This document shows, piece by piece, positions 47,169 through 59,844 of a stretch of 64,000 nucleotides of DNA (positions within the stretch are counted from its first letter, which is position 1; every line of letters begins with the position of its first letter). Origin of the DNA: Haloarcula rubra (lineage in GTDB: Archaea; Halobacteriota; Halobacteria; Halobacteriales; Haloarculaceae); contig NZ_RKLR01000001.1 in the NCBI RefSeq assembly GCF_019599465.1, forward strand, positions 310,001 through 374,000, written 5' to 3'. The position numbers and the translations under genes are program-made. The notes below the pieces were generated by a model. The model made no database searches. It had not been told where the DNA came from and saw only the letters and a list, made by a program, of their open reading frames with translations.

Positions 47169-48226
47169 CGACGGTGTTACAGGTCCCGGTGCTGGGCATC
47201 GAGTTCTCGACGCTCGTCATCCTGTTCATCGCGGCGTTCGGCGGGGGTGCATTCGGCGCGGCACTCGGGGCGCTCCCGGCGTTCTGTTTCACGGGATTCA
47301 TGGTCATCGCGGGGGAGGCAGCGGGGTTCGCGCAGGCCGAGTTGGCCGCGAACGTCACCGGTCTGGTCGCCTTCGGCCCGGTGTTCGGCCCCCACATCTC
47401 CTTCGCCGGCGGGGCGGCCGCGGCGGCCTACGCCGCCAGAGATAACGAGATGGGTGCCGGGTTCGACTACCACAACGCGAAGGCGATTACGTTCGCGCTG
47501 GGTACCGAACCGAGCCACCTCGTCGCCGGCGGGCTGTTCGGTATCGCGGGCATGCTCATCACGCAGTTCTCGGCGGCGTTCGCACTGCCGTGGGACCCCA
47601 TCGCCGTCGCCGTCACGCTCAGCGCCTTGCTCCACCGCGTGGTGCTGGGATACTCCGTCATCGGCGTCGTCGCCGGCGACGGCCTCTTCGACATGACGCC
47701 GTTCGAGCGCGGCGAGAAGCGGCGGGCAGGCGAGGTCGACGGCGACGCGGACAAGGCCGGCGAAGAGCGGTTCGCCGTCGAACCGTGGCTCCCCCACCAG
47801 TACGAGTGGAGCGGGGTCGCCCTCATCGGACTGGTTACAGGCATCCTCGGCGGCTACATCTGGTTGCAGACCGGGAGTTACTTCCTCGGCTTCGGCATCA
47901 GCGCCGCCTCGTTGACGTTCCTCAACCTCGGCGTCGAGAAGATTCCGGTCACACACCACATGACCTTGCCGGCGTCGACGGCCGGCGCCGCCGTCGTCGC
48001 CAGCGACCCGTCCGCCAGCGGCATCCTCGTCGTGGTCGTCGCCGCGGTGTTCGGCGTCTACGGCGCACTGCTCGGCGAAGTGTGGCAACGGATATTCTAC
48101 GCCCACGGAGACACGCACTGGGACCCGCCCGCCGCGGCCATCACCCTCGCGACGTTCACCATCGCAGTGCTGTACATCGTCGGCGTGTTCCCGGGGTCGG
48201 CGTGGGTGCCGGCGCTAGGCGTCTGA
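47162..48226 (+). CDS. Large conserved membrane protein, unknown (354 aa)
   Basis: About nine or ten hydrophobic helices. It opens with VLGIEFSTLVILFIAAFGGGAFGAALGALPAF. A central loop (FERGEKRRAGEVDGDADKAGEERFAVEPWLPHQYEW, about residues 180-215) divides two halves. Conserved-looking polar residues occur in GPHISFAGGAAAAAYAAR, YHNAKAITFALGTEPSHL and VEKIPVTHHMTLPASTAG, a permease-like pattern. Substrate unknown. ATG 47162 follows a long leader; ATG 47126 (MAVPERTRTELP) is an alternative start that adds 12 residues. Confidence 0.75.
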   Translation: MLTTVLQVPVLGIEFSTLVILFIAAFGGGAFGAALGALPAFCFTGFMVIAGEAAGFAQAELAANVTGLVAFGPVFGPHISFAGGAAAAAYAARDNEMGAGFDYHNAKAITFALGTEPSHLVAGGLFGIAGMLITQFSAAFALPWDPIAVAVTLSALLHRVVLGYSVIGVVAGDGLFDMTPFERGEKRRAGEVDGDADKAGEERFAVEPWLPHQYEWSGVALIGLVTGILGGYIWLQTGSYFLGFGISAASLTFLNLGVEKIPVTHHMTLPASTAGAAVVASDPSASGILVVVVAAVFGVYGALLGEVWQRIFYAHGDTHWDPPAAAITLATFTIAVLYIVGVFPGSAWVPALGV

Positions 48227-48255
48227 ACCGGCGGGCCCCGCCCGCTCTCGCCGTC

Positions 48256-49242
48256 TCACTCCGTGAGGGCGTCGAGTATCTCGCCCTCCGTCTCCCGGTC
48301 CGGGCCGAACTGGCGCCCGGTCCGTTCGTTCTCCCGGTGTTCGGCGACCGTCCGCTGGAGCGCGACCCGGTGGGGCGTCGACGACCAGCCCAGCGCACGC
48401 AGTTTCGCCGTCTCCAGCAGGTGGGGCGAGGCGCGATACATGGGGAAGTCCTGTGGTTCGAGGCCGTGGCGCGCGAGGTCGCGCGCGGTGGCCCCGACCG
48501 TCTCGACGCCCGTCTCACAGGTCTCGGCCAGCAGGTCTAGCCACTGGCCGAGCATCGGGGCGTGTTCGTCGCCGACGTTGTAGGCCTCGCCGGCCGTGCC
48601 CGCCTCGGCGACGAGGCGGAGCGCGCTCGCCACGTCCTCGACGTAGGCCATCTGCCAGAGGCTCAGACCGTCCCCGGGGACGACGACGCGGTCCTCGACG
48701 TCGACGCGGTCGACCCAGTAGGCGAACCGCTCGGTGTAGTCGTGGGGGCCGTAGACGACGGTCGGTCGGACGCTCATCGCCCGCACGCCCGCCTCGGCGG
48801 CCGAGAACACCTCTCTGTCGCCCTCGGCCTTCCGGGGGCCGTACGTCTCGGCGCTGTCGGTCGTCGCCTGCTCGTCGGAACACGGTTCGAGCGCCGTGTC
48901 GTCCTCGCGTTTCGGGACGCGCTCCTCCCCGTAGGCCGCCCCGCTGGAGACGTAGACGTAGGCGTCGACGTCGGCGAAGACGTCCGTCGCGACCCGCACG
49001 TCCTCCGGGAAGTACGCGACGCAGTCGACGACGACGTCGGGGTCGACGGCGGTGTGCACGTCTTCGAGCGCGTCCCGGTCCCGCCGGTTGCCCTCGAAGT
49101 GAGCCACGGCCTCGTCGTCGACGAAGGGGTTCGCTCGGGTCCCCCGGTTGAACATCGTCACGTCGTAGCCGGCGTCACGGAACTCGGAGACGGTGTAGCG
49201 CCCGATGAAGCGCGTCCCGCCGATGACGAGTACGTCGTCCAT
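48256..49242 (-). CDS. NAD-dependent epimerase/dehydratase-like extended SDR
   Basis: A 328-aa Rossmann protein of the extended SDR type. DDVLVIGGTRFIGRYTVSEF is the nucleotide loop, NRRDRDALEDV and DVVVDCVAYFP follow, and YVYVSSGAAYGEER plus TYGPRKAEGDREVF supply Ser and the YxxxK pair. RPTVVYGPHDYTERFAYWVDR is typical of UDP-sugar epimerases and CSP41-like proteins. The sugar substrate is unknown. It is divergent from the ABC importer, so a link in sugar metabolism is plausible but not shown. Confidence 0.88.
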   Translation of the reverse strand: MDDVLVIGGTRFIGRYTVSEFRDAGYDVTMFNRGTRANPFVDDEAVAHFEGNRRDRDALEDVHTAVDPDVVVDCVAYFPEDVRVATDVFADVDAYVYVSSGAAYGEERVPKREDDTALEPCSDEQATTDSAETYGPRKAEGDREVFSAAEAGVRAMSVRPTVVYGPHDYTERFAYWVDRVDVEDRVVVPGDGLSLWQMAYVEDVASALRLVAEAGTAGEAYNVGDEHAPMLGQWLDLLAETCETGVETVGATARDLARHGLEPQDFPMYRASPHLLETAKLRALGWSSTPHRVALQRTVAEHRENERTGRQFGPDRETEGEILDALTE

Positions 49243-49314
49243 ACCGGCGTATGGAGCGGCGGCGTCAAAACGGGTCGGGTGAGCGCCGGACGGTTCCTGC
49301 CGACTCGGCGAGAC

Positions 49315-49350
49315 GTGCACACTTCGCTCACCTACGCACGAAGTATGCAC
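49315..49350. promoter_or_regulatory. 11-bp-arm inverted repeat upstream of the SDR gene
   Basis: GTGCACACTTC (49315-49325) and GAAGTATGCAC (49340-49350) pair at 10 of 11 positions around a 14-base loop. A second short repeat, CCACT-TC-AGTGG, lies at 49435-49446. Both are in the 299-base divergent gap before the ABC operon, which holds no supported gene. Confidence 0.5.
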
Positions 49351-49504
49351 ACTATCGTTCACAGCGCTCAGCGGTCGCCAGTGGGAGCAGATATCGTACA
49401 GAGCGGTCAAAACGCCATCTCGGTCCATTTTAGCCCACTTCAGTGGTCACAAACTCGCGTGTTACGTAATACTTCGTCGTGATTATACGCGAACGTTAAC
49501 CCAC

Positions 49505-49539
49505 ATAATTTATTAACTATGCCTAAATGATGTTCATTT
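49505..49539 (+). promoter_or_regulatory. ABC operon promoter with operator-like palindrome
   Basis: ATAATTTATTAA (49505-49516) is a strong TATA block 26-37 bases before ATG 49542. Right after it, AAATGA-TGT-TCATTT (49525-49539) is a perfect inverted repeat over the transcription start and first codons, a good repressor site. Confidence 0.6.
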
Positions 49540-49541
49540 GC

Positions 49542-50882
49542 ATGCAGCGACAACCCAAGCGAACTCGACGACGATTCATCAAAGGTGCAGGCGCTATCGG
49601 TACGGTCGCACTCGCGGGGTGCGGCGGCAACGGGAGTTCGGACGGCGGAAGCGGGTCCGACGGGTCCGATGGGTCCGACGGGTCCGGCGAGACCACGGGG
49701 ACCGGTACGGAGTCCATGGCCGACAGCATCGTCTTCTACAACGCCGGGAGCCTCAAGTACGACCCCGGGACGGAGGCGAACATCGAACGGTTCGAAGAGG
49801 AGACCGGCATCTCCGTCGAAGTGAACGAGGTTCCGTGGAACAACCTCAAGACCAGCCTCACCACCATCTGGCGGAACGAGGACGCGACAGTCGACGCGTT
49901 CAACGGCCCGACGTGGTGGCTGGCCGACTTCGTCGCCTCGGACTGGCTCGAACCGCTCGAACTGGGCGACAGCCACATGTCCAACTTCCCGACGAACCTC
50001 CAGGACCTCGTCACGTTGGACGGCAAGACGTACATGGCCCCCGAGTTCGGCAAGTGGGGGACGTTCCTCTACGACCAGACCCACTTCGAGGCGCAGGGCG
50101 TCAGCGAGCCGCCGAGCACGTGGGACGAAGTCGTCTCGAAGGGCCAGCAGTTGAAGACCGAGGACACGTCGCCGTTCGCGTTCACGTGGGCCAACAAGGA
50201 CGTGTTCACGTTCAAGCAGTTCCTGTATCAGGCCGGCGGCCAGCTGTTCAACGACAGCAACGAACCGGTCTTCGTCGACGCCGGGATGGACGTGATGGAC
50301 TTCTTCACGGAACTGCGCGAGCAGGACCTCATCCCCGACGGCATCTCCAGCATGGGCGAGGGCGGCACGGGTGACACGTTCATCGCCGGCCAGCTAGCCA
50401 GCGTGGAGTCGTGGACGCCGCTCGGCGCTCGTGCCCTCGACGCCGACAGTTGGGGGAAAGACCGGCTCGCCAGCGCGAAACCGCCGAAGGGCCCCGACTC
50501 TCGCGCGACGTTCCAGGACACGAACGGTATCAGCGTCTCGGCGTTCTCGGAGAAGAAACGCGCGGCCAAGAAGTTCGCGAAGTTCATGACCACGCCGGAG
50601 TCCTCGAAGACCAACATGAAGGTGGAGGGCAACCCCGCCGTCATCCCCTCGGTCTACGACTCCGAGGCCATCCAGAGCCAGTACCCGTCGTGGCTGCTCG
50701 AAGACATGAAGTTCAACCTCGAACACGCCAAGAGCGAGACGTACCTCGCGCAACCGCAGGTCGACGACTACCTCTCCGAGCAGATTACGCCGGCGCTGCT
50801 GGGTGACAAGGACCCGCAGCAGGCGCTCCAGACGGCACAGAACAACATCGAGAGCCTGTACCAGGACATCGGGTTGCTCTAA
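49542..50882 (+). CDS. Carbohydrate ABC transporter substrate-binding lipoprotein
   Basis: The extracellular receptor of the importer. The 446-aa protein begins with a Tat signal (TRRRFIKGAGAIGTVALAGC) whose lipobox Cys is residue 27, then a Gly/Ser/Asp linker. The mature part is a family 1 extracellular solute-binding protein: VFYNAGSLKYDPGTEANIERFEEETGISVEV, then GKTYMAPEFGKWGTFLYDQTHF and FIAGQLASVESWTPLG. Such proteins bind sugars, polyols or glycerol phosphates. The ligand is not predictable. ATG 49542 is preferred because it fits the TATA box; in-frame ATGs at 49527 and 49530 exist. Confidence 0.92.
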   Translation: MQRQPKRTRRRFIKGAGAIGTVALAGCGGNGSSDGGSGSDGSDGSDGSGETTGTGTESMADSIVFYNAGSLKYDPGTEANIERFEEETGISVEVNEVPWNNLKTSLTTIWRNEDATVDAFNGPTWWLADFVASDWLEPLELGDSHMSNFPTNLQDLVTLDGKTYMAPEFGKWGTFLYDQTHFEAQGVSEPPSTWDEVVSKGQQLKTEDTSPFAFTWANKDVFTFKQFLYQAGGQLFNDSNEPVFVDAGMDVMDFFTELREQDLIPDGISSMGEGGTGDTFIAGQLASVESWTPLGARALDADSWGKDRLASAKPPKGPDSRATFQDTNGISVSAFSEKKRAAKKFAKFMTTPESSKTNMKVEGNPAVIPSVYDSEAIQSQYPSWLLEDMKFNLEHAKSETYLAQPQVDDYLSEQITPALLGDKDPQQALQTAQNNIESLYQDIGLL

Positions 50883-50930
50883 CCGGTCGCACCACGGCAC
50901 CGCCATCTGAATACACACGCACGTCACTAC

Positions 50931-51860
50931 ATGTCGACAGAAAAACAATCACTGCGACGAAAACTCGACCGGCTGTTCGTCCCCCTGACGGTCGGGCCGA
51001 CGATGCTCTGGATAGCCGGCATCATCGTCTACCCGACCCTGAAGTTGCTCTGGAGCAGCGTCTTCTGGACGAACCCCATCGACGGCCAGAAGGAGTTCGT
51101 CGGTCTCCGGAACTTCGAACGCCTCATCTTCGCCGAGGGGGGCAGCGGGACGGTCTTCGGCCTCGCACCGGACTTCGTTTCGATTACCTGGCACACGTTC
51201 GTCTACGTCGGGCTGAGCGTGAGCATCTCGTTCGCGCTGGGACTGGGCATCGCGCTCCTCCTCGACAAGGACCTCAAGGGACGCGGGTGGTTCAGGACCG
51301 CCGTCATCGTACCGTGGATTCTCCCCTACGTGATGAGCGGCCTGATGTGGCGCTGGATGTTCAACTCCGAGTACGGCGCCATCAACGGGATACTCACCCA
51401 GTCCGGACTCCTGTCCAGCAAGATAGCGTTCTTCTCGGACGGGACTCTCGCGATGATGGCGCTCGTCATCGCAGACATCTGGGTGTTCACGCCGTTCATC
51501 ATCATCATCCTGCTCGCGGGGCTCCAGAACGTCCCCGAGCAGTTGTACGACGCCGCCGAAGTCGACGGCGCCGGGAAGGTTTCGCGGTTCGTGAACGTCA
51601 CGTACCCGTTCCTGAAACCGTCCATTCTGGTCGCGCTGACTATCCGAATCATCTTCGACATCCGCGCGCTCGACCTCGTCTGGGTCATGACTCAGGGTGG
51701 GCCGGGGAAATCGACGGAAGTCTGGGCCTCCTGGCTCTACCGCACCGCACAGGTCTTCAACCGCCCCGGAGAGGGTGCAGCACTCGGCGTCGTCCTACTC
51801 GCCGTCACGTTCCTCATCGTGGCAGTGCTGTACAGAGTCTTCGGTGAGTCCCCCTACTGA
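50931..51860 (+). CDS. ABC transporter permease, MalF/UgpA-like
   Basis: A 309-aa inner-membrane permease with six helices. The EAA loop reads LYDAAEVDGAGKVSRFVNVTYPFLKP (about residues 202-228) and contacts the ATPase. The N-terminal helix is preceded by a short cytoplasmic part, RRKLDRLFVPL. A periplasmic section FAEGGSGTVFGLAPD is also seen. It forms a heterodimer with the next permease. It starts 48 bases after the binding-protein gene and ends two bases before the next ATG. Confidence 0.93.
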   Translation: MSTEKQSLRRKLDRLFVPLTVGPTMLWIAGIIVYPTLKLLWSSVFWTNPIDGQKEFVGLRNFERLIFAEGGSGTVFGLAPDFVSITWHTFVYVGLSVSISFALGLGIALLLDKDLKGRGWFRTAVIVPWILPYVMSGLMWRWMFNSEYGAINGILTQSGLLSSKIAFFSDGTLAMMALVIADIWVFTPFIIIILLAGLQNVPEQLYDAAEVDGAGKVSRFVNVTYPFLKPSILVALTIRIIFDIRALDLVWVMTQGGPGKSTEVWASWLYRTAQVFNRPGEGAALGVVLLAVTFLIVAVLYRVFGESPY

Positions 51861-51862
51861 CA

Positions 51863-52783
51863 ATGAGCACGAAACAATCCACTCTCGGCCAACTGATAGC
51901 CGCACTGGGACTGGACACCGAGAACGAGTGGTCCCACGTCGTCCGTGAACGCCTCGTCGCGTACGCACTGCTGGGGCTGTACGTCTTCGTCATCTGGTTC
52001 CCCATCTACTTCATCTTCATCACGAGCATCAAACCGACGTCGGCTGTGCTGGACATCCCCATCTCGTTCCTCCCGACCCAGCCGACGGTCAGCAACTACG
52101 TCGAAATCTTCCAGAACCGGCCGTTCGAACTGTACACGCTGAACAGCCTCATCGTCGCGAGCACCACCACCGTCATCTGTGTCACGCTCGGGACGGTCAC
52201 GGGGTACTCGTTCTCCCGGTACGACTTCGTGGGCAACAAGACGCTGTTGCTCTCTATCGTCGGCGCGCGGATGATTCCGCCCATCGCGCTCATCGTGCCG
52301 TTCTTCAGCATCATGTCGAACCCGCCGCTCATCGGCGGGTTGACCGGGAGTCTGTACGACACGCGCATCGCGCTCATCCTGACGTACACGTTCTTCAACC
52401 TCCCGTTCGCCGTCTGGATAATGAAGAACTACTTCGACGGCGTCCCCGAGTCGCTGGACGAACAGGCCCGCATCGATGGCTGTTCGCGCTGGGAAGGGTT
52501 CGTCAAGATTATCCTGCCGATGGCGAAACCCGGCATCGCCGCGACGGCGATTCTGGCGTTCATCTTCTCGTGGAACGAGTTCGTCTTCGCGCTCGTTCTC
52601 ACGTCCTCGGAGCAGGCACAGACGTTGCCCATCGCCGTCTCGCTGTTCGTCGCCGACGACTTCGTCGACTGGGCACACCTCGCCGCCGGTGGCATGATAG
52701 CGGCCCTGCCGGGCATCCTGTTCGGCCTGTTCTTCCAGCAGTACATCGTGAGCGGACTGACCCAAGGAGCTGTCAAGGAGTAA
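51863..52783 (+). CDS. ABC transporter permease, MalG/UgpE-like
   Basis: The second permease, 306 aa, with six helices and the EAA motif SLDEQARIDGCSRWEGFVKIILPMAKPGI. The first helix region is ALLGLYVFVIWFPIYFIFITSIKPTS and the last helix is followed by FQQYIVSGLTQGAVKE. The sequence matches the MalG/LacG group of sugar importers. Tight spacing (2 bases before, 6 after) shows one operon. Confidence 0.93.
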   Translation: MSTKQSTLGQLIAALGLDTENEWSHVVRERLVAYALLGLYVFVIWFPIYFIFITSIKPTSAVLDIPISFLPTQPTVSNYVEIFQNRPFELYTLNSLIVASTTTVICVTLGTVTGYSFSRYDFVGNKTLLLSIVGARMIPPIALIVPFFSIMSNPPLIGGLTGSLYDTRIALILTYTFFNLPFAVWIMKNYFDGVPESLDEQARIDGCSRWEGFVKIILPMAKPGIAATAILAFIFSWNEFVFALVLTSSEQAQTLPIAVSLFVADDFVDWAHLAAGGMIAALPGILFGLFFQQYIVSGLTQGAVKE

Positions 52784-52789
52784 CCAACA

Positions 52790-53920
52790 ATGGCACACGT
52801 AGAACTCAACGACCTCGTAAAGGAATTCGACGACGTCACGGCAGTCGACGGCATCTCGCTGGACATCCCCGACGAGAGCTTCACCGTCTTCGTCGGCCCC
52901 TCCGGATGCGGCAAGACGACGACGCTCCGCCTCATCGCCGGCCTCGAACGCGCCACGGACGGGGAGATTCGCATCGGCGACGAAGTGGTCAACGACCGGC
53001 GCGCCTACGAACGGGACATCGCGATGGTGTTCCAGAACTACGCGCTGTACCCACACAAGACCGTCCGCGAGAACATGCGCTTCGGGCTGGAACAACACGA
53101 CACGCCCGAGGACGTCATCACGGAGCGGGTCACCGAAGCCGCGGAGCTCCTGCAGATACAGGACCTGCTCGAACGCAAGCCCTCGGAGCTCTCGGGCGGC
53201 CAGCAACAGCGCGTCGCGCTGGGGCGGGCCATCGTCCGCGACCCCGCGGTGTTCCTGATGGACGAACCGCTCAGTAATCTGGACGCGAAGCTCCGCGTGC
53301 AGATGCGCGCGGAACTCAACAAACTCCACGAGGAACTGTCGACGACGACGGTGTACGTCACGCACGACCAGGTGGAGGCGATGACGCTGGCCGACCAGAT
53401 CGCCGTCATGGACGACGGCCAGATTCAGCAGGTCGGCGCGCCGACACACGTCTACTCGAACCCGCGCAACATGTTCGTCGCGGGCTTCCTCGGCTCGCCC
53501 AGCATGAACTTCATCGAGGGGACGCTCGAACGCGACTCCGCGGGGAAACTCCAGCTAGACATCGGGACGGAGACCCACGACGTCCCCGACGAGTTCGACG
53601 ACGAACTCGAGTCGTATCTCGGCGACGAGGTCGTCCTCGGCATCCGGCCGGAGAACATCTCGCTCAATCAGGACGGCATCGCCGCGAACGTCCACCCCGC
53701 GACCGTGCAAGTGGTCGAACCGCAGGGCGAGAAGACGGTCCTCGAAGTCGGCCTCGACACCGGTCAGACCATCAAGGCCGCCGTCGACCCCGACACGACG
53801 GTCCAGATGGGTGACAGCGTCAACCTCCGCTTCGACCGCGACTCGCTCCAGTACTTCGACCCCCAGACCGGGGAATCACTGACCTACGAGTCGAAATCCG
53901 AGCAGAAACTGACCGCCTGA
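52790..53920 (+). CDS. ABC transporter ATPase, MalK/UgpC-like
   Basis: The motor of the importer, 376 aa. Walker A is FVGPSGCGKTTTLRLIAGLE, the Q-loop is VFQNYALYPHKTV, the signature is LSGGQQQRVALGRA, Walker B is AVFLMDEPLSNLDAKLRVQ, and the H-loop is VTHDQVEAMTLADQ. The C-terminal part (residues 240-370) has the TOBE/OB fold of the MalK group, with VLGIRPENISLNQDG. That regulatory domain is complete. Directly followed by the 57-aa gene. Confidence 0.95.
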   Translation: MAHVELNDLVKEFDDVTAVDGISLDIPDESFTVFVGPSGCGKTTTLRLIAGLERATDGEIRIGDEVVNDRRAYERDIAMVFQNYALYPHKTVRENMRFGLEQHDTPEDVITERVTEAAELLQIQDLLERKPSELSGGQQQRVALGRAIVRDPAVFLMDEPLSNLDAKLRVQMRAELNKLHEELSTTTVYVTHDQVEAMTLADQIAVMDDGQIQQVGAPTHVYSNPRNMFVAGFLGSPSMNFIEGTLERDSAGKLQLDIGTETHDVPDEFDDELESYLGDEVVLGIRPENISLNQDGIAANVHPATVQVVEPQGEKTVLEVGLDTGQTIKAAVDPDTTVQMGDSVNLRFDRDSLQYFDPQTGESLTYESKSEQKLTA

Positions 53921-53922
53921 CG

Positions 53923-54096
53923 ATGCGACTCGACACCACCCGTCGCCCGTCACGCGTCGCCGTGACCGCGTTCGGCATCGCCGGGATACTGGCAGCCATC
54001 GCCGTGTACAACTACGCGACCGGTGTCCACGGCGGCGCCGTCGTCAGCAGTGTCGGTACCGTCGTCGCGACGCTGTTCGGGGTCCTCACCGAGTAA
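53923..54096 (+). CDS. 57-aa single-helix membrane protein closing the ABC operon
   Basis: ATG 53923 begins two bases after the ATPase stop. The product MRLDTTRRPSRVAVTAFGIA then GILAAIAVYNYATGVHGGAV then VVSSVGTVVATLFGVLTE has one or two hydrophobic helices (about 13-30 and 38-55) after a basic N-terminus. The tight spacing, positive-inside N-terminus and clean stop argue for a real gene cotranslated with the importer. No family is recognised. It could help assemble or regulate the permease. Confidence 0.65.
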   Translation: MRLDTTRRPSRVAVTAFGIAGILAAIAVYNYATGVHGGAVVSSVGTVVATLFGVLTE

Positions 54097-54113
54097 TATG
54101 AAGGATGCATATT
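54095..54113. promoter_or_regulatory. AT-rich inverted repeat at the end of the ABC operon
   Basis: AATATG and CATATT are perfect arms around AAGGATG, directly overlapping the stop of the 57-aa gene. It may act as an operator for the next unit or a terminator hairpin; the AT content is unusual for the region. Confidence 0.35.
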
Positions 54114-54266
54114 TATGAGTTCGACACGGACCGCGAATGCAACGACGTGTGGCAGACGAGGGTGTCTGTCGTAGACGTATGCAGGACCGTACGTCCCCGA
54201 TTCCGTCGGTGGGGTTCCTCTAGGTGTCGAGCATGTCGATGACAAACAAGGCTATACGCGTCGCTG

Positions 54267-54278
54267 CCGTAGCTACGG
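54267..54278. promoter_or_regulatory. 12-bp palindrome in the DeoR promoter
   Basis: CCGTAGCTACGG is perfectly self-complementary, lying between a TATA-like GCTATACG (about 54251) and the regulator ATG at 54319. It is a candidate autoregulatory operator. Confidence 0.45.
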
Positions 54279-54318
54279 ACCGACCACCGGCGCGTGTGAT
54301 ACGAAACAACTCGTGACT

Positions 54319-55098
54319 ATGTTGCCCGAGGAACGACGACAGGAGATAGTTCGAAAAGTAAACAGCAGTGACAGGGTCACAGTCGAGGAACTCACGGAGG
54401 CGTTCGGTGTCTCGGGAGCGACGATTCGGCGCGACCTGGCATCGCTGGCCGAGGACGGCCTCATCGAGCGGTTTCACGGCGGTGCGCTGCCGGCCTCGAA
54501 CGGCCGGACGGACGACACCGGCACGCGGGTGGAGCGCAGCGTCGAGAACCCGAACGGGAAACGCGCCATCGCGGAACGGGCGGTCGAGGAACTGGGCGAC
54601 GGCGACGCCGTCTTCTTCGACACCGGCCAGACCACCATGGAGGTGGCCAGAGAGCTCCCGGAGTCGGTGTCGCTCCTCGTCGCGACGAACTCCCCGGAGA
54701 ACGCCTTCGAACTCCGGAAGGCCTGCGGGGAGGTGAAAGTCGTCGGCGACTCGCTCCGCCGGACCTCCGACGCTCTCGTCGGTCCGAGCGGCGAGTCGTA
54801 TCTGCGTAAGACGAACTTCGACGTCGTCTTCCTCGAGACCGACGCCATCCAGCAGGACGGGAGTCTCTCGGTGTCGAACGAGGACGAGGCCCGCATCAAA
54901 TCCCTGCTCGTCGACGGCGGTCACCGCGTCGTCCTCGTCGCCGACGGGAGCAAACTGGACCAGCAGAGCTTCCGCGAGTTCGCCACCGTCGACGACATCG
55001 ACGTGTTCATCACCGACGTCGCGCTCGACGAGGACATGCGTGCGGTGTTCGACCGGGCCGGCGTCGAAGTCGTCGACAACTTACTGGTCGTGAGCTAA
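54319..55098 (+). CDS. DeoR/GlpR-family transcriptional repressor
   Basis: A 259-aa sugar-responsive regulator. The N-terminal HTH is LPEERRQEIVRKVNSSDRVTVEELTEAFGVSGATIRRDLASLAEDGLIERFHGGALP, a standard DeoR signature. The C-terminal DeoR sensor domain (about 75-250) shows FFDTGQTTMEVARELPE, LLVATNSPENA, KVVGDSLRRTSDALVGPSGE and VLVADGSKLDQQSF, which binds phosphorylated sugars. In Haloferax, GlpR of this family controls fructose and glucose enzymes. Its position after the importer suggests it controls that operon. ATG 54319 is chosen over a GTG two codons upstream. Confidence 0.93.
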   Translation: MLPEERRQEIVRKVNSSDRVTVEELTEAFGVSGATIRRDLASLAEDGLIERFHGGALPASNGRTDDTGTRVERSVENPNGKRAIAERAVEELGDGDAVFFDTGQTTMEVARELPESVSLLVATNSPENAFELRKACGEVKVVGDSLRRTSDALVGPSGESYLRKTNFDVVFLETDAIQQDGSLSVSNEDEARIKSLLVDGGHRVVLVADGSKLDQQSFREFATVDDIDVFITDVALDEDMRAVFDRAGVEVVDNLLVVS

Positions 55099-55264
55099 CG
55101 GCGGACCGCGAGGCTGTGCGACGCCGGCCGGTCTTCGCCCGGCGACCTCGTCGCGACTGTGTCCGGGACACTCGGGAGCGACGCGACCCCTGCCGCCGTC
55201 GGACTCGGACGACACGGCAGACGCCGTCGCTCAGGCGTCGAGACCGAAGGAGAAGGGACCCGCC

Positions 55265-58200
55265 TCAGTCGTCCGAGGAGGCGGCGAAGTCGGCCTCGCT
55301 GGCCTCCGCGACGGCCGACGCGGCGGCCGGTGGTTCGTTGCGCACGTCGTCGCGTTCGCGGTCGGAGATGACCTCGGCGTAGGCGTCGGGCATCACCATC
55401 GTGAAGTTCTCGAGTTCGGCGTCCCAGTCCTCTAGGAGTTCGTTCGCGCGGTCCGAGTCGGTGTAGGCCGCGTGGTTCTCGACGAGGCGGGTGATCATCT
55501 GACGATCCTTCGCTTCGAGCGTCTCCCGGATGGAGACCATGCCGGTGTTGGCCTGTTCGGCGAAGGACCCGTCGGGGTCGTAGACGTAGGCGACGCCGCC
55601 GGACATCCCGGCCGCGAAGTTCTTGCCCGTGTCCCCGAGGACGACGATAGCGCCACCGGTCATGTACTCACAGCCGTGGTCGCCGACGCCCTCGACGACG
55701 CCCTTGATACCGGAGTTGCGGACGCCGAAGCGCTCGCCGGCCATGCCGTTGATGTACACCTCGCCCTGCGTCGCACCGTAGAGGGCGACGTTGCCGATGA
55801 CGATGTTGTCGCTGGCCTCGTAGGGTGCGTCTTCCGGCGTGTTGACGACGAGTTTCCCGCCGGAGAGACCCTTGCCGACGTAGTCGTTGGCCGTGCCGGT
55901 CAGTTCCATCGTCACGCCCTGTGCGAGGAACGCGCCGAAGGACTGGCCGGCGGTGCCGTCGAAGTCGACGCGGATGGTGTCGTCGGGCAGGCCGTCGCCG
56001 CCGTGGGCCCGGCAGATGCGGTTCGACAGGGTCGCACCGACCGCGCGGTTAACGTTGTCGATGCTCGTGTCGATGGCCACCGGTTCGCCGTTCTCGATGG
56101 CGGGTTCGGCCGCGTCCAGCAGGTCCCAGTCGAGCTGCTCGTCGACCTCGTGGTCCTGTTCGCGCTGTTTGTACCGGCCGTCGTTGTCGGCCGGTTCGGC
56201 GATGACCGAGGAGAGGTCGAGTTTCTTCGCCTTCGGTTGCGTGACGTCGTCGCGCTGTTCGAGGACGCCCGCGCGGCCGATCATCTCGTCGACCGTCTCG
56301 AAGCCGAGTTCGGCCATTATCTCGCGCAGTTCCTGCGCGACGAACGTCATGTAGTTGATGACGTGCTGTGGTTCGCCGGGGAACCGGCTCCGCAGGTTCT
56401 CGTTCTGCGTGGCGATGCCGACCGGACAGGTGTTCTCGTGGCACTGTCGGGCCATCACACAGCCCGAGGTGACCATCGAGGCGGTCCCGAAGGTGTACCC
56501 CTCGGCACCCAGCAGGGCGGCGACGGCCACGTCGCGACCGGTCTTCATCCCGCCGTCGGTGGTAATCTTGATGCGCGAGCGCAGTCCCGTCGCGCGGAGC
56601 ATCTGGTTGGCCTCGGCGACGCCCAGTTCCCACGGGAGGCCCGCGTTCTTGATGGACGTCTTCGGCGACGCGCCGGTGCCGCCGTCGTGCCCCGAGATGT
56701 GGACCACGTCGGCGTTGGCCTTCGCGACGCCGGCCGCGATGGTGCCGATGCCGTCCTCGGCGACCAGTTTGACGTTGATGTCGGCCTCCGGGTTCGAGGC
56801 CTTCAGGTCGTGGATGAGTTGCTTCAGGTCCTCGATGGAGTAGATGTCGTGCAGCGGCGGCGGCGAGATGAGGCCGACGCCCGGCGTCGCGTACCGGACG
56901 TGGGCGATCATCTCGTTGACCTTCTTGCCGGGGAGGTGACCCCCTTCACCGGGCTTCGAGCCCTGTGCCATCTTGATCTGGAGTTCGTCCGCCGCGGCAA
57001 GGTACTCCGAGGTGACGCCGAAGCGACCGGAGGCGACCTGCTTGGTCGTACACTCCTTCTCGGTGTGGAACCGCTCGGGCGGTTCGCCGCCCTCGCCGGT
57101 GTTGGCGTTGGCACCGAGACGGTTCATCGCGATGGCGTTGTTCTCGTGCATCTCCGGGGAGAGCGACCCGAGCGACATCGCCGCCGTCTCGAAGCGCTGG
57201 ACGATGTCCTCTACGGGTTCGACGTCCTCGACGGGGATGGACTCACGGTCCGAATCGAGTTCGAGGAGGCCCCGGAGCGTCTGGAGTTGCTCGTTCTGGT
57301 CGTTGACGAGTTCGGCGAACTCCTTGTAGGTGTCGTAGTCGCCCATGCGGACGGCCTGCTGAATCTTGCCGACCGTGTTGGGGTTCCACTGGTGGTGGAT
57401 GCCGTTCGAGCGGAACTCGTACTCGCCCTGCCGGGGCATCTCCGGTTCCTCTTCGCTCCACGCCACGTCGTGACGCTGGAGCAGGTCGTCCTCTATCTCC
57501 TCGATACCGATACCCTCCGTGCGGCAGGTCGTGCCCTCGAAGTACTCGGCGATGAAGTCGGAGGAGAGGCCGACGGCCTCGAAGATTTGGGCGCCCTGAT
57601 AGGACTCCACGGTGGAGATGCCCATCTTCGCCATCGTCTTCAGCAGGCCGTCCTCGACGGCCGTGATGTAGGCGTCGATGGCGTCCGAGAGGTCGGCGCC
57701 GTCCGGCCCGGCGACGAGGTCCTCGATAGTCTCGTAGGCGAGGTAGGGGTTGACCGCGCCCGCACCGTAGCCGATGAGCGTCGCGAAGTGGTGGACAGCA
57801 CGCGGGTCGCCCGATTCGAGAACGAGGCCGACGTGGTTGCGCAGGCCGTTGCGGACGAGGTGGTGGTGGATGCCACCGACCGCCAGTAGCGAGGGGATGG
57901 GGACGCGGTCCTCGCCGGCCGCCTTGTCCGAGAGCACGATGATGTCGTGTTCCTTGGCCGCGGCGTCGGCCTCGGCCCGCACGTCTTCGATGGCCTCACG
58001 GAGGTCAGTTCCCTTCTCGTAGGTGATGTCGACGACTTTCGTCGACATGTCGTTCTCGTCGATGTCCTTGATGGCCGCCGTCTCGGCGTCGGTGAGAATC
58101 GGCGAGTCGAGAACGAGTTGGCGCGCGTGGGCCTGCGTCTCGTCGAGCAGGTTGCGCTGGAAGCCCAGTCGAGACTCCAGCGAGGTGACCAGTTCCTCGC

Positions 58201-59818
58201 GGATGTAGTCCAGCGGCGGGTTCGTGACCTGCGCGAACAGTTGCTTGAAGTAGGTGAACAGCGGCCGGTTGAACTGCGAGAGCACCGACAGCGGCGTGTC
58301 GTCGCCCATGGAACCGACGGGGTCTTTCCCCTTCTCGGCCATCGGTTCGATGAGGTGGTCGACCTCGTCGTACGTGTAGCCGTACATGGCCTGATGGCTC
58401 CGCAGGCCACTCACCTCGTGGCGCGGCGTGTTGTCCGAGCGGTCTGCGACGTCGTCGATGTCGACCTGTTCCTCGGCGACCCACTCGCCGTACTTGTCGT
58501 CGGCGATGTTCTCGAAGACCTCCTCGTCGGGGATGACACGGCCTTCCTCGGGGTCGGCGAGGAAACACTGTCCGGGCTGGAGGCGGCCACGTTCGGCGAT
58601 TTCGCTGGCGTCGTGGTCGAGCGCGCCGGCCTCGGAGGACATCACGAGCGTGTTGTCCTGCAAGACGTCGTAGCGACACGGGCGCAGACCGTTGCGGTCG
58701 AGCACCGCACCGATGCGGTCCCCGTCCGTCGCCGCGACCAGCGCCGGTCCGTCCCACGGTTCGACGAGCGACGCGTGGTAGTCGTAGAAGTCGCGTCGGT
58801 CGCCAGAGACGTTGTTCATCTCGCCGCGCCACGCCTCGGGGATGAGCATCCGGAGCGCGTGCGGGAGGTCACGACCGCCCTGCAGGAGGAGTTCGAGCGC
58901 GTTGTCGACGCTCGCGGTGTCGGACTGGGTCGGGTCGTCGATGATGGGCTTGATGGTCTCGACGTCGTCGCCGAACCGGTCGCTCTGGATGTCCGTCTCG
59001 CGAGCGCGCATCCAGTTGATGTTGCCCTGAATCGTGTTGAACTCGCCGTTGTGGATGATGCGGCGGTACGGGTGTGCGAGGTGCCACGCGCCGAGCGTGT
59101 TCGTCGAGAAGCGCGCGTGGACCATCGCGAACGTCGACTCCAGACGCTCGTCGGAGAGGTCCGGGTAGTACGCCGGAAGCTGTTCGGCCGTCAGCAGGCC
59201 CTTGTAGACGACGACGTCGGTAGCCAGCGAGACGACGTAGAAGCGTTCGTGGCCCGGCGGCTGTTCGGACTCGACGGTGTTCTCCAGCGAGCGTCGAGCG
59301 ACGTAGAGTTGGTTGTCGAGTTCCTCGCCCGTCTTCCCCTCGGCGGACGTGGCGACGAACTGGACGATTTCCGGCTCGGACTCGAGCGCGGTGGCGCCGA
59401 GGTCGCCGTTGTCGGTCGGAACGGTCCGCCAGTCGAGGACGTCCAGTCCTTCCCCCGCGAGTTCCGTCTCGACGAGGTCTTGCAGACTCTCGGCGGCCTC
59501 GTCGTCGTCCTTCGGTAGAAAGAGCGTCCCGACGGCGTACTCGCCCGGAGCGGGCAGGTCCGCGTCCAGTTCCTCGGCGAAGAACTCGTGTGGAATCTGG
59601 AGCATGATACCGGCACCGTCACCGGTGTTCTGCTCGGCCCCAGTCGTCCCCCGGTGTTCGAGGTTCTCGAGGAGGTCCAGTCCGTCAGATACTGTGCCGT
59701 GGTCGCTGCCGCCGTCGAGGTCCATCACGACCCCGACACCGCAGTTCGACCGTGCGTCTGTCGGGTCTACGAGCCCGGCCTCGCTCGCAGACTGGTCACT
59801 GTCGTGTCGCTCAACCAT
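55265..59818 (-). CDS. gltB: Glutamate synthase, large subunit (GOGAT)
   Basis: Transfers the glutamine amide to 2-oxoglutarate to make glutamate. The 1517-aa protein has the class II amidotransferase domain with Cys26 in SNCGVGVVMD as the probable nucleophile after a cleaved propeptide. A central domain and the FMN synthase domain (GRFGVTSEYLAAADELQIKMAQGSKPGEGGHLPG, then HISGHDGGTGASP) follow. The iron-sulfur Cys set is CVMARQCHENTCPVGIAT, and a GxGxG-repeat end carries GGAIVVLGDTGKNFAAGMSGG. No small NADPH subunit (gltD) is adjacent, so a ferredoxin-linked form is likely. ATG 59818 fits the proximal TATA. Confidence 0.95.
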   Translation of the reverse strand: MVERHDSDQSASEAGLVDPTDARSNCGVGVVMDLDGGSDHGTVSDGLDLLENLEHRGTTGAEQNTGDGAGIMLQIPHEFFAEELDADLPAPGEYAVGTLFLPKDDDEAAESLQDLVETELAGEGLDVLDWRTVPTDNGDLGATALESEPEIVQFVATSAEGKTGEELDNQLYVARRSLENTVESEQPPGHERFYVVSLATDVVVYKGLLTAEQLPAYYPDLSDERLESTFAMVHARFSTNTLGAWHLAHPYRRIIHNGEFNTIQGNINWMRARETDIQSDRFGDDVETIKPIIDDPTQSDTASVDNALELLLQGGRDLPHALRMLIPEAWRGEMNNVSGDRRDFYDYHASLVEPWDGPALVAATDGDRIGAVLDRNGLRPCRYDVLQDNTLVMSSEAGALDHDASEIAERGRLQPGQCFLADPEEGRVIPDEEVFENIADDKYGEWVAEEQVDIDDVADRSDNTPRHEVSGLRSHQAMYGYTYDEVDHLIEPMAEKGKDPVGSMGDDTPLSVLSQFNRPLFTYFKQLFAQVTNPPLDYIREELVTSLESRLGFQRNLLDETQAHARQLVLDSPILTDAETAAIKDIDENDMSTKVVDITYEKGTDLREAIEDVRAEADAAAKEHDIIVLSDKAAGEDRVPIPSLLAVGGIHHHLVRNGLRNHVGLVLESGDPRAVHHFATLIGYGAGAVNPYLAYETIEDLVAGPDGADLSDAIDAYITAVEDGLLKTMAKMGISTVESYQGAQIFEAVGLSSDFIAEYFEGTTCRTEGIGIEEIEDDLLQRHDVAWSEEEPEMPRQGEYEFRSNGIHHQWNPNTVGKIQQAVRMGDYDTYKEFAELVNDQNEQLQTLRGLLELDSDRESIPVEDVEPVEDIVQRFETAAMSLGSLSPEMHENNAIAMNRLGANANTGEGGEPPERFHTEKECTTKQVASGRFGVTSEYLAAADELQIKMAQGSKPGEGGHLPGKKVNEMIAHVRYATPGVGLISPPPLHDIYSIEDLKQLIHDLKASNPEADINVKLVAEDGIGTIAAGVAKANADVVHISGHDGGTGASPKTSIKNAGLPWELGVAEANQMLRATGLRSRIKITTDGGMKTGRDVAVAALLGAEGYTFGTASMVTSGCVMARQCHENTCPVGIATQNENLRSRFPGEPQHVINYMTFVAQELREIMAELGFETVDEMIGRAGVLEQRDDVTQPKAKKLDLSSVIAEPADNDGRYKQREQDHEVDEQLDWDLLDAAEPAIENGEPVAIDTSIDNVNRAVGATLSNRICRAHGGDGLPDDTIRVDFDGTAGQSFGAFLAQGVTMELTGTANDYVGKGLSGGKLVVNTPEDAPYEASDNIVIGNVALYGATQGEVYINGMAGERFGVRNSGIKGVVEGVGDHGCEYMTGGAIVVLGDTGKNFAAGMSGGVAYVYDPDGSFAEQANTGMVSIRETLEAKDRQMITRLVENHAAYTDSDRANELLEDWDAELENFTMVMPDAYAEVISDRERDDVRNEPPAAASAVAEASEADFAASSDD

Positions 59819-59844
59819 GTGTGCGCGCATCTAGTTGGGGCCCC

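Follow-up and report, generated by a model that had tools for sequence, protein, structure and literature searches.

What does the short open reading frame directly behind the ATPase gene of a sugar importer operon in Haloarcula rubra encode, and does its product belong to the importer? The question arises in a window of 64,000 nucleotides (the whole stretch of DNA that was analysed), in which an ORF of 57 codons on the + strand (53923–54096; ATG to TAA; MRLDTTRRPSRVAVTAFGIAGILAAIAVYNYATGVHGGAVVSSVGTVVATLFGVLTE) begins after a gap of 2 nt from the TGA of the ATPase gene. The first-pass annotation had described a 57-amino-acid ORF whose start lies two bases past the ATPase stop, and coordinates, start codon, stop codon and gap all agree with that description. 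The upstream genes, all on the + strand, form a CUT1 importer operon consisting of a binding protein, two BPD_transp_1 permeases and a MalK/UgpC ATPase with a TOBE domain, as assigned by Pfam and NCBIfam. The substrate-binding protein gene (SBP_bac_1, 49527–50882) matches Pfam PF01547 at 9.2e-29 and PF13416 at 4.2e-26, and has a Tat-like signal that lies below the cut-off. Permease 1 (MalF/UgpA-like, 50931–51860) matches PF00528 at 4.9e-14 and NCBIfam MalF at 4.4e-31, the latter below the cut-off of that family; permease 2 (MalG/UgpE-like, 51863–52783) matches PF00528 at 1.1e-21, and its orthologs have 79–99% identity. The 376-amino-acid ATPase (UgpC/MalK-like, 52790–53920) matches Pfam ABC_tran (8.4e-34), TOBE_2 (8.6e-15) and OB_MalK (2.4e-13), and scores 444 bits against NCBIfam UgpC NF008653 (cut-off 432). 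Downstream, 216 nt separate the small ORF from glpR, which encodes a DeoR-type sugar regulator (54313–55098, + strand; NCBIfam NF041397, 327.5 bits, cut-off 300); convergent with glpR is a 1521-amino-acid ORF (55265–59830, − strand), which we take to resemble the large chain of glutamate synthase.

In GC-rich DNA the length of an ORF is by itself no evidence for a gene: 77 ORFs of at least 40 amino acids overlap positions 48000–58500, and two of them run antisense to the small ORF. Conservation is such evidence. In a tblastn search of 60 genomes, that of H. rubra included, 14 other genomes of the genus have the small ORF at E < 1e-12; weaker matches were regarded as noise, since 44 of the 60 genomes had some match at E ≤ 10. 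The order permease–ATPase–ORF–GlpR is kept in 15 of 15 genus loci, the window included, with ORF lengths of 56–58 amino acids; in 14 loci the start comes 2 nt after the stop codon of the ATPase gene, and in one it overlaps that codon. The full genus search found the ORF in 15 of 32 genomes. An orthologue with 58% identity lies on a plasmid of Haloarcula pelagica (NZ_CP126162.1, 84780–84953; L209:8064–8237) and is annotated there as a hypothetical protein (WP_284011409.1), so that the earlier statement that the ORF is too short for gene callers does not hold. The tblastn search against plasmids missed this orthologue, perhaps because of the low-complexity filter, and short hydrophobic queries can get lost in such searches.

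Beyond the genus, a profile (A1) built for the small protein matched 23 of 391 genomes of the class at E ≤ 0.01. The match is syntenic in 20 of these, 11 in the genus and nine in three other families, and not syntenic in three (G069, G119, G230). Only 16 first-look candidates per genome were scored, so that absences are not absolute, and a second copy in G390 was missed. The three non-syntenic genomes and one from the tblastn search (G048) were left out of the family, as their loci (L016, L128–L130) do not match the importer genes. In 246 genomes of the phylum, a broader profile gave a single copy in an importer operon, that of the window itself, and no family member outside the class; four other weak matches, which lie in open frames of 530–936 amino acids (L270–L273), were left out as well.

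Permease 2 provides a search that is independent of the small ORF and thus unbiased toward finding it. Its orthologs occur in 21 of the 391 class genomes, so that this importer type is uncommon, and the 20 genomes with a syntenic profile match are 20 of these 21. Searches by GTDB family found permease-2 orthologs in 2 of 148 genomes of f4, 4 of 125 of f7 and 11 of 28 of f17, some genomes recurring across searches. Altogether, 34 distinct operons in four GTDB families were obtained (23 from the class search, one new in f7 and 10 new in f17), and in 33 of them an intact hydrophobic ORF of 54–68 amino acids lies directly behind the ATPase gene. These 33, together with four genus members found via the ORF (G007, G008, G021, G027), make up alignment A2 of 37 intact homologues, in which the members from the three other families are alignable at 28–53% identity. 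Relative to the ATPase stop, the start codon lies in a 4-nt overlap (ATGA or GTGA) in 20 homologues, at +2 in 14, at +3 in two and at −1 in one.

Substitution patterns indicate selection on the encoded protein. Across 17 disjoint pairs, which use 34 of the 37 sequences, 274.5 of 866.2 synonymous and 278.5 of 2031.8 nonsynonymous sites were changed, giving a pooled pN/pS of 0.43 (one-sided Fisher p 8.9e-28). The pairs were chosen closest first (L007, L154 and L163 remained unpaired), and the p-value is approximate because some pairs have internal tree branches in common. Differences at the three codon positions of the frame number 1553, 1250 and 2682, the third position being the highest. The constraint is moderate, not strong. 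It is weakest in the N-terminus (pN/pS 0.56), intermediate in helix 1 (0.41) and strongest in the turn and helix 2 (0.35). Compared with the window sequence within the genus, omega is 0.26–0.81 for the small ORF and 0.055–0.16 for the ATPase; the small protein thus outpaces the ATPase in evolution, which better suits a peripheral than a core part. Both checks that had been proposed with the first-pass annotation, conservation of the reading frame in relatives (here in the genus loci and in further families) and a synonymous/nonsynonymous pattern indicative of protein selection, gave positive results.

The association is also specific to one type of importer. Six haloarchaeal genomes contain 60 matches to the window's ATPase at E ≤ 1e-75. 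All seven orthologous ATPases carry the small ORF, and none of the 53 paralogous MalK-type ATPases has a member of this family behind it; some other hydrophobic ORF (35–120 amino acids) follows seven of the 53, six of these ORFs belonging to a second small family described below and one (L220) being seemingly unrelated. A wider genome scan covered 80 loci with ATPase identity of at most 55%; by record title almost all of these are bacterial, and Desulfurococcales and Haloarcula contribute one locus each. Five were dropped; each of the other 75 has 400 nt or more past the ATPase gene, and in none of them does a hydrophobic ORF of 40–120 amino acids start within 20 nt of the ATPase stop. Strict linkage to one importer type, as would be looked for in an accessory subunit, is therefore what was observed (33 of 34 operons versus 0 of 53 paralogs), and it supports a small membrane protein dedicated to this transporter. 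The conserved ORF at 53923–54096 is a genuine gene that accompanies one importer type in haloarchaea. Given this conservation and linkage, its product is probably a small subunit or tuner of that importer which has so far been overlooked.

AlphaFold2 run on A2 predicts two helices, at residues 11–33 and 36–55 (mean pLDDT 79.5, pTM 0.53), with pLDDT ranging from 62.9 to 79.5 over the five models of the hairpin. In most members the predicted turn reads N-Y-x2-G-x-Y-G-G-A, and after M1 the best-conserved columns are L23, A27, Y31, G34 and G45. The protein had earlier been credited with a basic N-terminus and a single hydrophobic helix. The family, however, has a pair of hydrophobic stretches, and two helices are predicted instead of one. 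Likewise, the basic N-terminus occurs in the window species, in some of its close sisters and in a second operon type, including six f17 members of that type in which it is strongly basic, but many homologues are neutral or acidic at this end, and the N-terminal net charge across the family runs from +7 to −2. Profile scans found no family near its cut-off, either in Pfam, against which 15 members from the genus and three distant members were run, or in NCBIfam, against which the protein of the window and two distant members were run. Membership of a known family was rejected, the matches in both being sub-threshold and inconsistent (best Pfam E 0.047 for the window's protein and 15 members). 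A profile search against solved structures gave a sole, weak match to SecDF (E 0.041), which was regarded as chance. A Foldseek search with the hairpin returned 29 matches, the best a ferritin at E 3.0, which is uninformative for a two-helix model.

Our preferred reading, to which we assign a probability of roughly 0.55, is that this two-helix integral membrane protein is a small accessory subunit of the upstream CUT1-type (MalFGK-like) sugar ABC importer. The spacing of stop and start codons suggests that the gene may be co-translated with that of the ATPase, and translation of the two would be coupled through the ATGA or GTGA overlap or the +2 or +3 nt spacing. The hairpin is predicted to insert in the membrane so that its N- and C-terminus lie on the same side; it could then pack against the outside of the two permeases, and may tune the importer by aiding assembly of the complex, its stability or its proper switching or gating. 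A protein that is made with the ATPase and permeases, is linked to the importer, evolves faster than the core components and has been lost once fits an accessory subunit.

The loss is found in G026, the exception among the 34 operons. A frame of 58 codons occupies the same place, and the small ORF in it has decayed: the frame scores 6.3 bits to profile A1 and does not match A2, and it lacks a hydrophobic helix, its maximum hydropathy over 17 residues being 0.86 as against 1.89–2.76 in the 37 intact homologues. The binding protein, permeases, ATPase and GlpR of this genome (L146, L177) are all present over their length, and since the operon is otherwise intact, the importer can persist without the small protein. 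Charged residues and prolines now occupy what used to be the helices, and G026 represents a natural knock-out.

The main alternative, which we rate as clearly less probable, is that the protein regulates the activity of the importer, acting as an SgrT-like brake or as an element of inducer exclusion through binding to the permeases or the ATPase when the flux of sugar phosphate or through the fructose PTS is high. Linkage to a regulator gene would suit such a role: glpR follows the small ORF in all 15 genus loci, and wide flanks show the same order in 10 of 12 loci and in the window. Fructose-PTS genes follow glpR in 6 of 9 loci of f7 and f17 (L169–L172, L176, L178). In one of these, L170, the genes behind GlpR include a 1-phosphofructokinase (NF041320, 462.8 bits, cut-off 400) and a fructose EIIC (TIGR01427, 283.5 bits, cut-off 157.55); the L170 GlpR is above its NCBIfam cut-off, and EIIB in L170 and PtsI in L171 are above those of Pfam. 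The PTS and GlpR genes of the remaining wide loci were assigned via similarity to the L170 and L171 genes. Small proteins acting in this way on other transporters have been reviewed (PMC10710835), and an archaeal case of 61 amino acids is provided by sP36, which acts on AmtB1 (PMC10714827). However, a protein whose gene keeps a constant position in the importer operon would always be made together with its supposed target, no PTS gene adjoins the three Haloarcula loci that were read with wide flanks (the window, G026 and H. pelagica), and two f17 operons of the second type (L173, L175) have no adjacent GlpR.

The same neighbourhoods bear on what is transported. Within wide flanks, fructose-PTS genes are absent beside L173, L174, L175, the two f4 loci, G026 and the window. 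The H. pelagica gene is accompanied by glpR, a fumarylacetoacetate hydrolase, a Gfo/Idh/MocA oxidoreductase and a relative of mandelate racemase. Because fructose-PTS genes follow glpR in six of the nine loci, in two families, a guess at the cargo would be fructose or a sugar that enters the fructose pathway. In those six loci, the ABC importer and the fructose-PTS genes are arranged around one glpR, so that two uptake systems, perhaps for related sugars, stand side by side. The operons of the second type, in two f17 genomes, encode a diverged, strongly basic hairpin, and their neighbours presumably include genes for a 2-oxoacid:ferredoxin oxidoreductase and for Lrp. A similar hairpin occurs in L157–L160.

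A further alternative is a role in the same pathway as a membrane protein without contact to the importer, for example as an anchor for the Tat-type binding protein or an aid to its export, or in tethering GlpR to the membrane. The small gene does share an operon with the binding protein and often with glpR, but it stays with the importer in L173 and L175 where GlpR is not adjacent, and it was not found behind the 53 other MalK-type ATPases; we consider this explanation improbable. That the ORF is no gene at all, and represents a chance frame (such frames are plentiful, and length by itself is uninformative) or a conserved 3′ RNA element, is rejected as very improbable on the strength of the pN/pS of 0.43 (p about 1e-27) with differences concentrated at third codon positions, a protein alignable across three other families, and start/stop spacing that has been kept.

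For an accessory subunit, the nearest comparisons are with small proteins of other transporters. To our knowledge, the textbook CUT1 complex consists of a binding protein, two permeases and an ATPase dimer, and a small membrane subunit is not part of it; the operon here has the same four upstream genes as CUT1 importers of the MalFGK2/UgpABCE type, and differs in encoding the small membrane protein. KdpF is a single-helix subunit encoded with the KdpABC pump, whereas the protein described here has ABC importer neighbours and two predicted helices. GlpU/DUF2160 of the rhizobial glycerol ABC importer and CbiN of the cobalt ECF importer are small membrane proteins encoded with their importer, and in this the present protein resembles them; neither family was matched in Pfam at E ≤ 1 by the window's protein or the 15 members. 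AcrZ is a single helix around AcrB of the RND pump, and thus also differs from a two-helix protein with ABC neighbours. AcrZ, MgtS, MgtR and MgtU are small membrane proteins that act on transporters (PMC10710835). Like these and KdpF, the protein is short, hydrophobic and dedicated to one or few transporters, but their partners are P-type ATPases, a phosphate transporter and the RND pump instead of a CUT1 ABC importer. SgrT is encoded in the SgrS RNA and inhibits PtsG of the PTS (PMC10710835), whereas the small protein here is encoded in an ABC operon. The earlier comparison with SgrT, AcrZ and KdpF can be kept as one of analogues at most, given that no family came near its cut-off in the Pfam and NCBIfam scans.

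In the available part of one review, small proteins act on PTS, P-type, RND, PiT and MntP transporters, and among ABC importers the case given is LucB, a small transmembrane protein found with the mycobacterial Mce1 lipid importer; no case of a CUT1 sugar importer with a small protein appears in that part (PMC10710835). LucB, compared by description only, is similar in being a small transmembrane protein with an ABC importer, and differs in importer class. In Methanosarcina mazei, the 61-amino-acid sP36 is dispersed in the cytoplasm and moves to the membrane on nitrogen upshift, where its target is AmtB1 (PMC10714827); it is likewise an archaeal small protein on a membrane transporter, and differs in its target and in being cytoplasmic until the upshift. 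Among the titles and abstract openings covered by a search of openly available literature, none reported a small subunit of haloarchaeal sugar importers.

A second, unrelated family occupies the same genetic position. It consists of membrane proteins of 55–70 amino acids (about 67) with the motif LFFFWAYGIVSF-LD-KNK and the end QLY, encoded behind another type of MalK-like ATPase (for example G000:C31:247970–248173; L230, L241), and AlphaFold on alignment A3 predicts one long helix (5–67). Its profile matches 78 of 194 genomes of the class, so that it is more widespread than the first family. The 30 best loci, which were those examined (L240–L269), all have a MalK-like ATPase upstream, which is 43.5–46.8% identical to that of the window and lies within 10 nt in 25 of them and at 24–101 nt in five (start codons chosen by script). 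Two members matched no Pfam family at cut-off, and six public plasmid records annotate the protein as hypothetical. By hhalign, the first and second families are unrelated (probability 0.2).

With two unrelated families in the same position, the general idea of small subunits on haloarchaeal CUT1 importers carries more weight than one family would give it. It is a tentative extension, which we would not yet favour, that haloarchaeal CUT1 sugar importers commonly carry a dedicated small membrane subunit encoded behind the ATPase, which evolved at least twice from unrelated sequences, and that in the present type the hairpin belongs to the permease belt as a regular component, a separately encoded equivalent of MalF's additional N-terminal helices. 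MalFGK-type importers are among the best-studied transporters and are thought to be complete with four kinds of subunit. If the proposal is true, haloarchaea would have repeatedly added small subunits to them. The idea is directly testable in tractable haloarchaea, and yields predictions for genes that are now called hypothetical.
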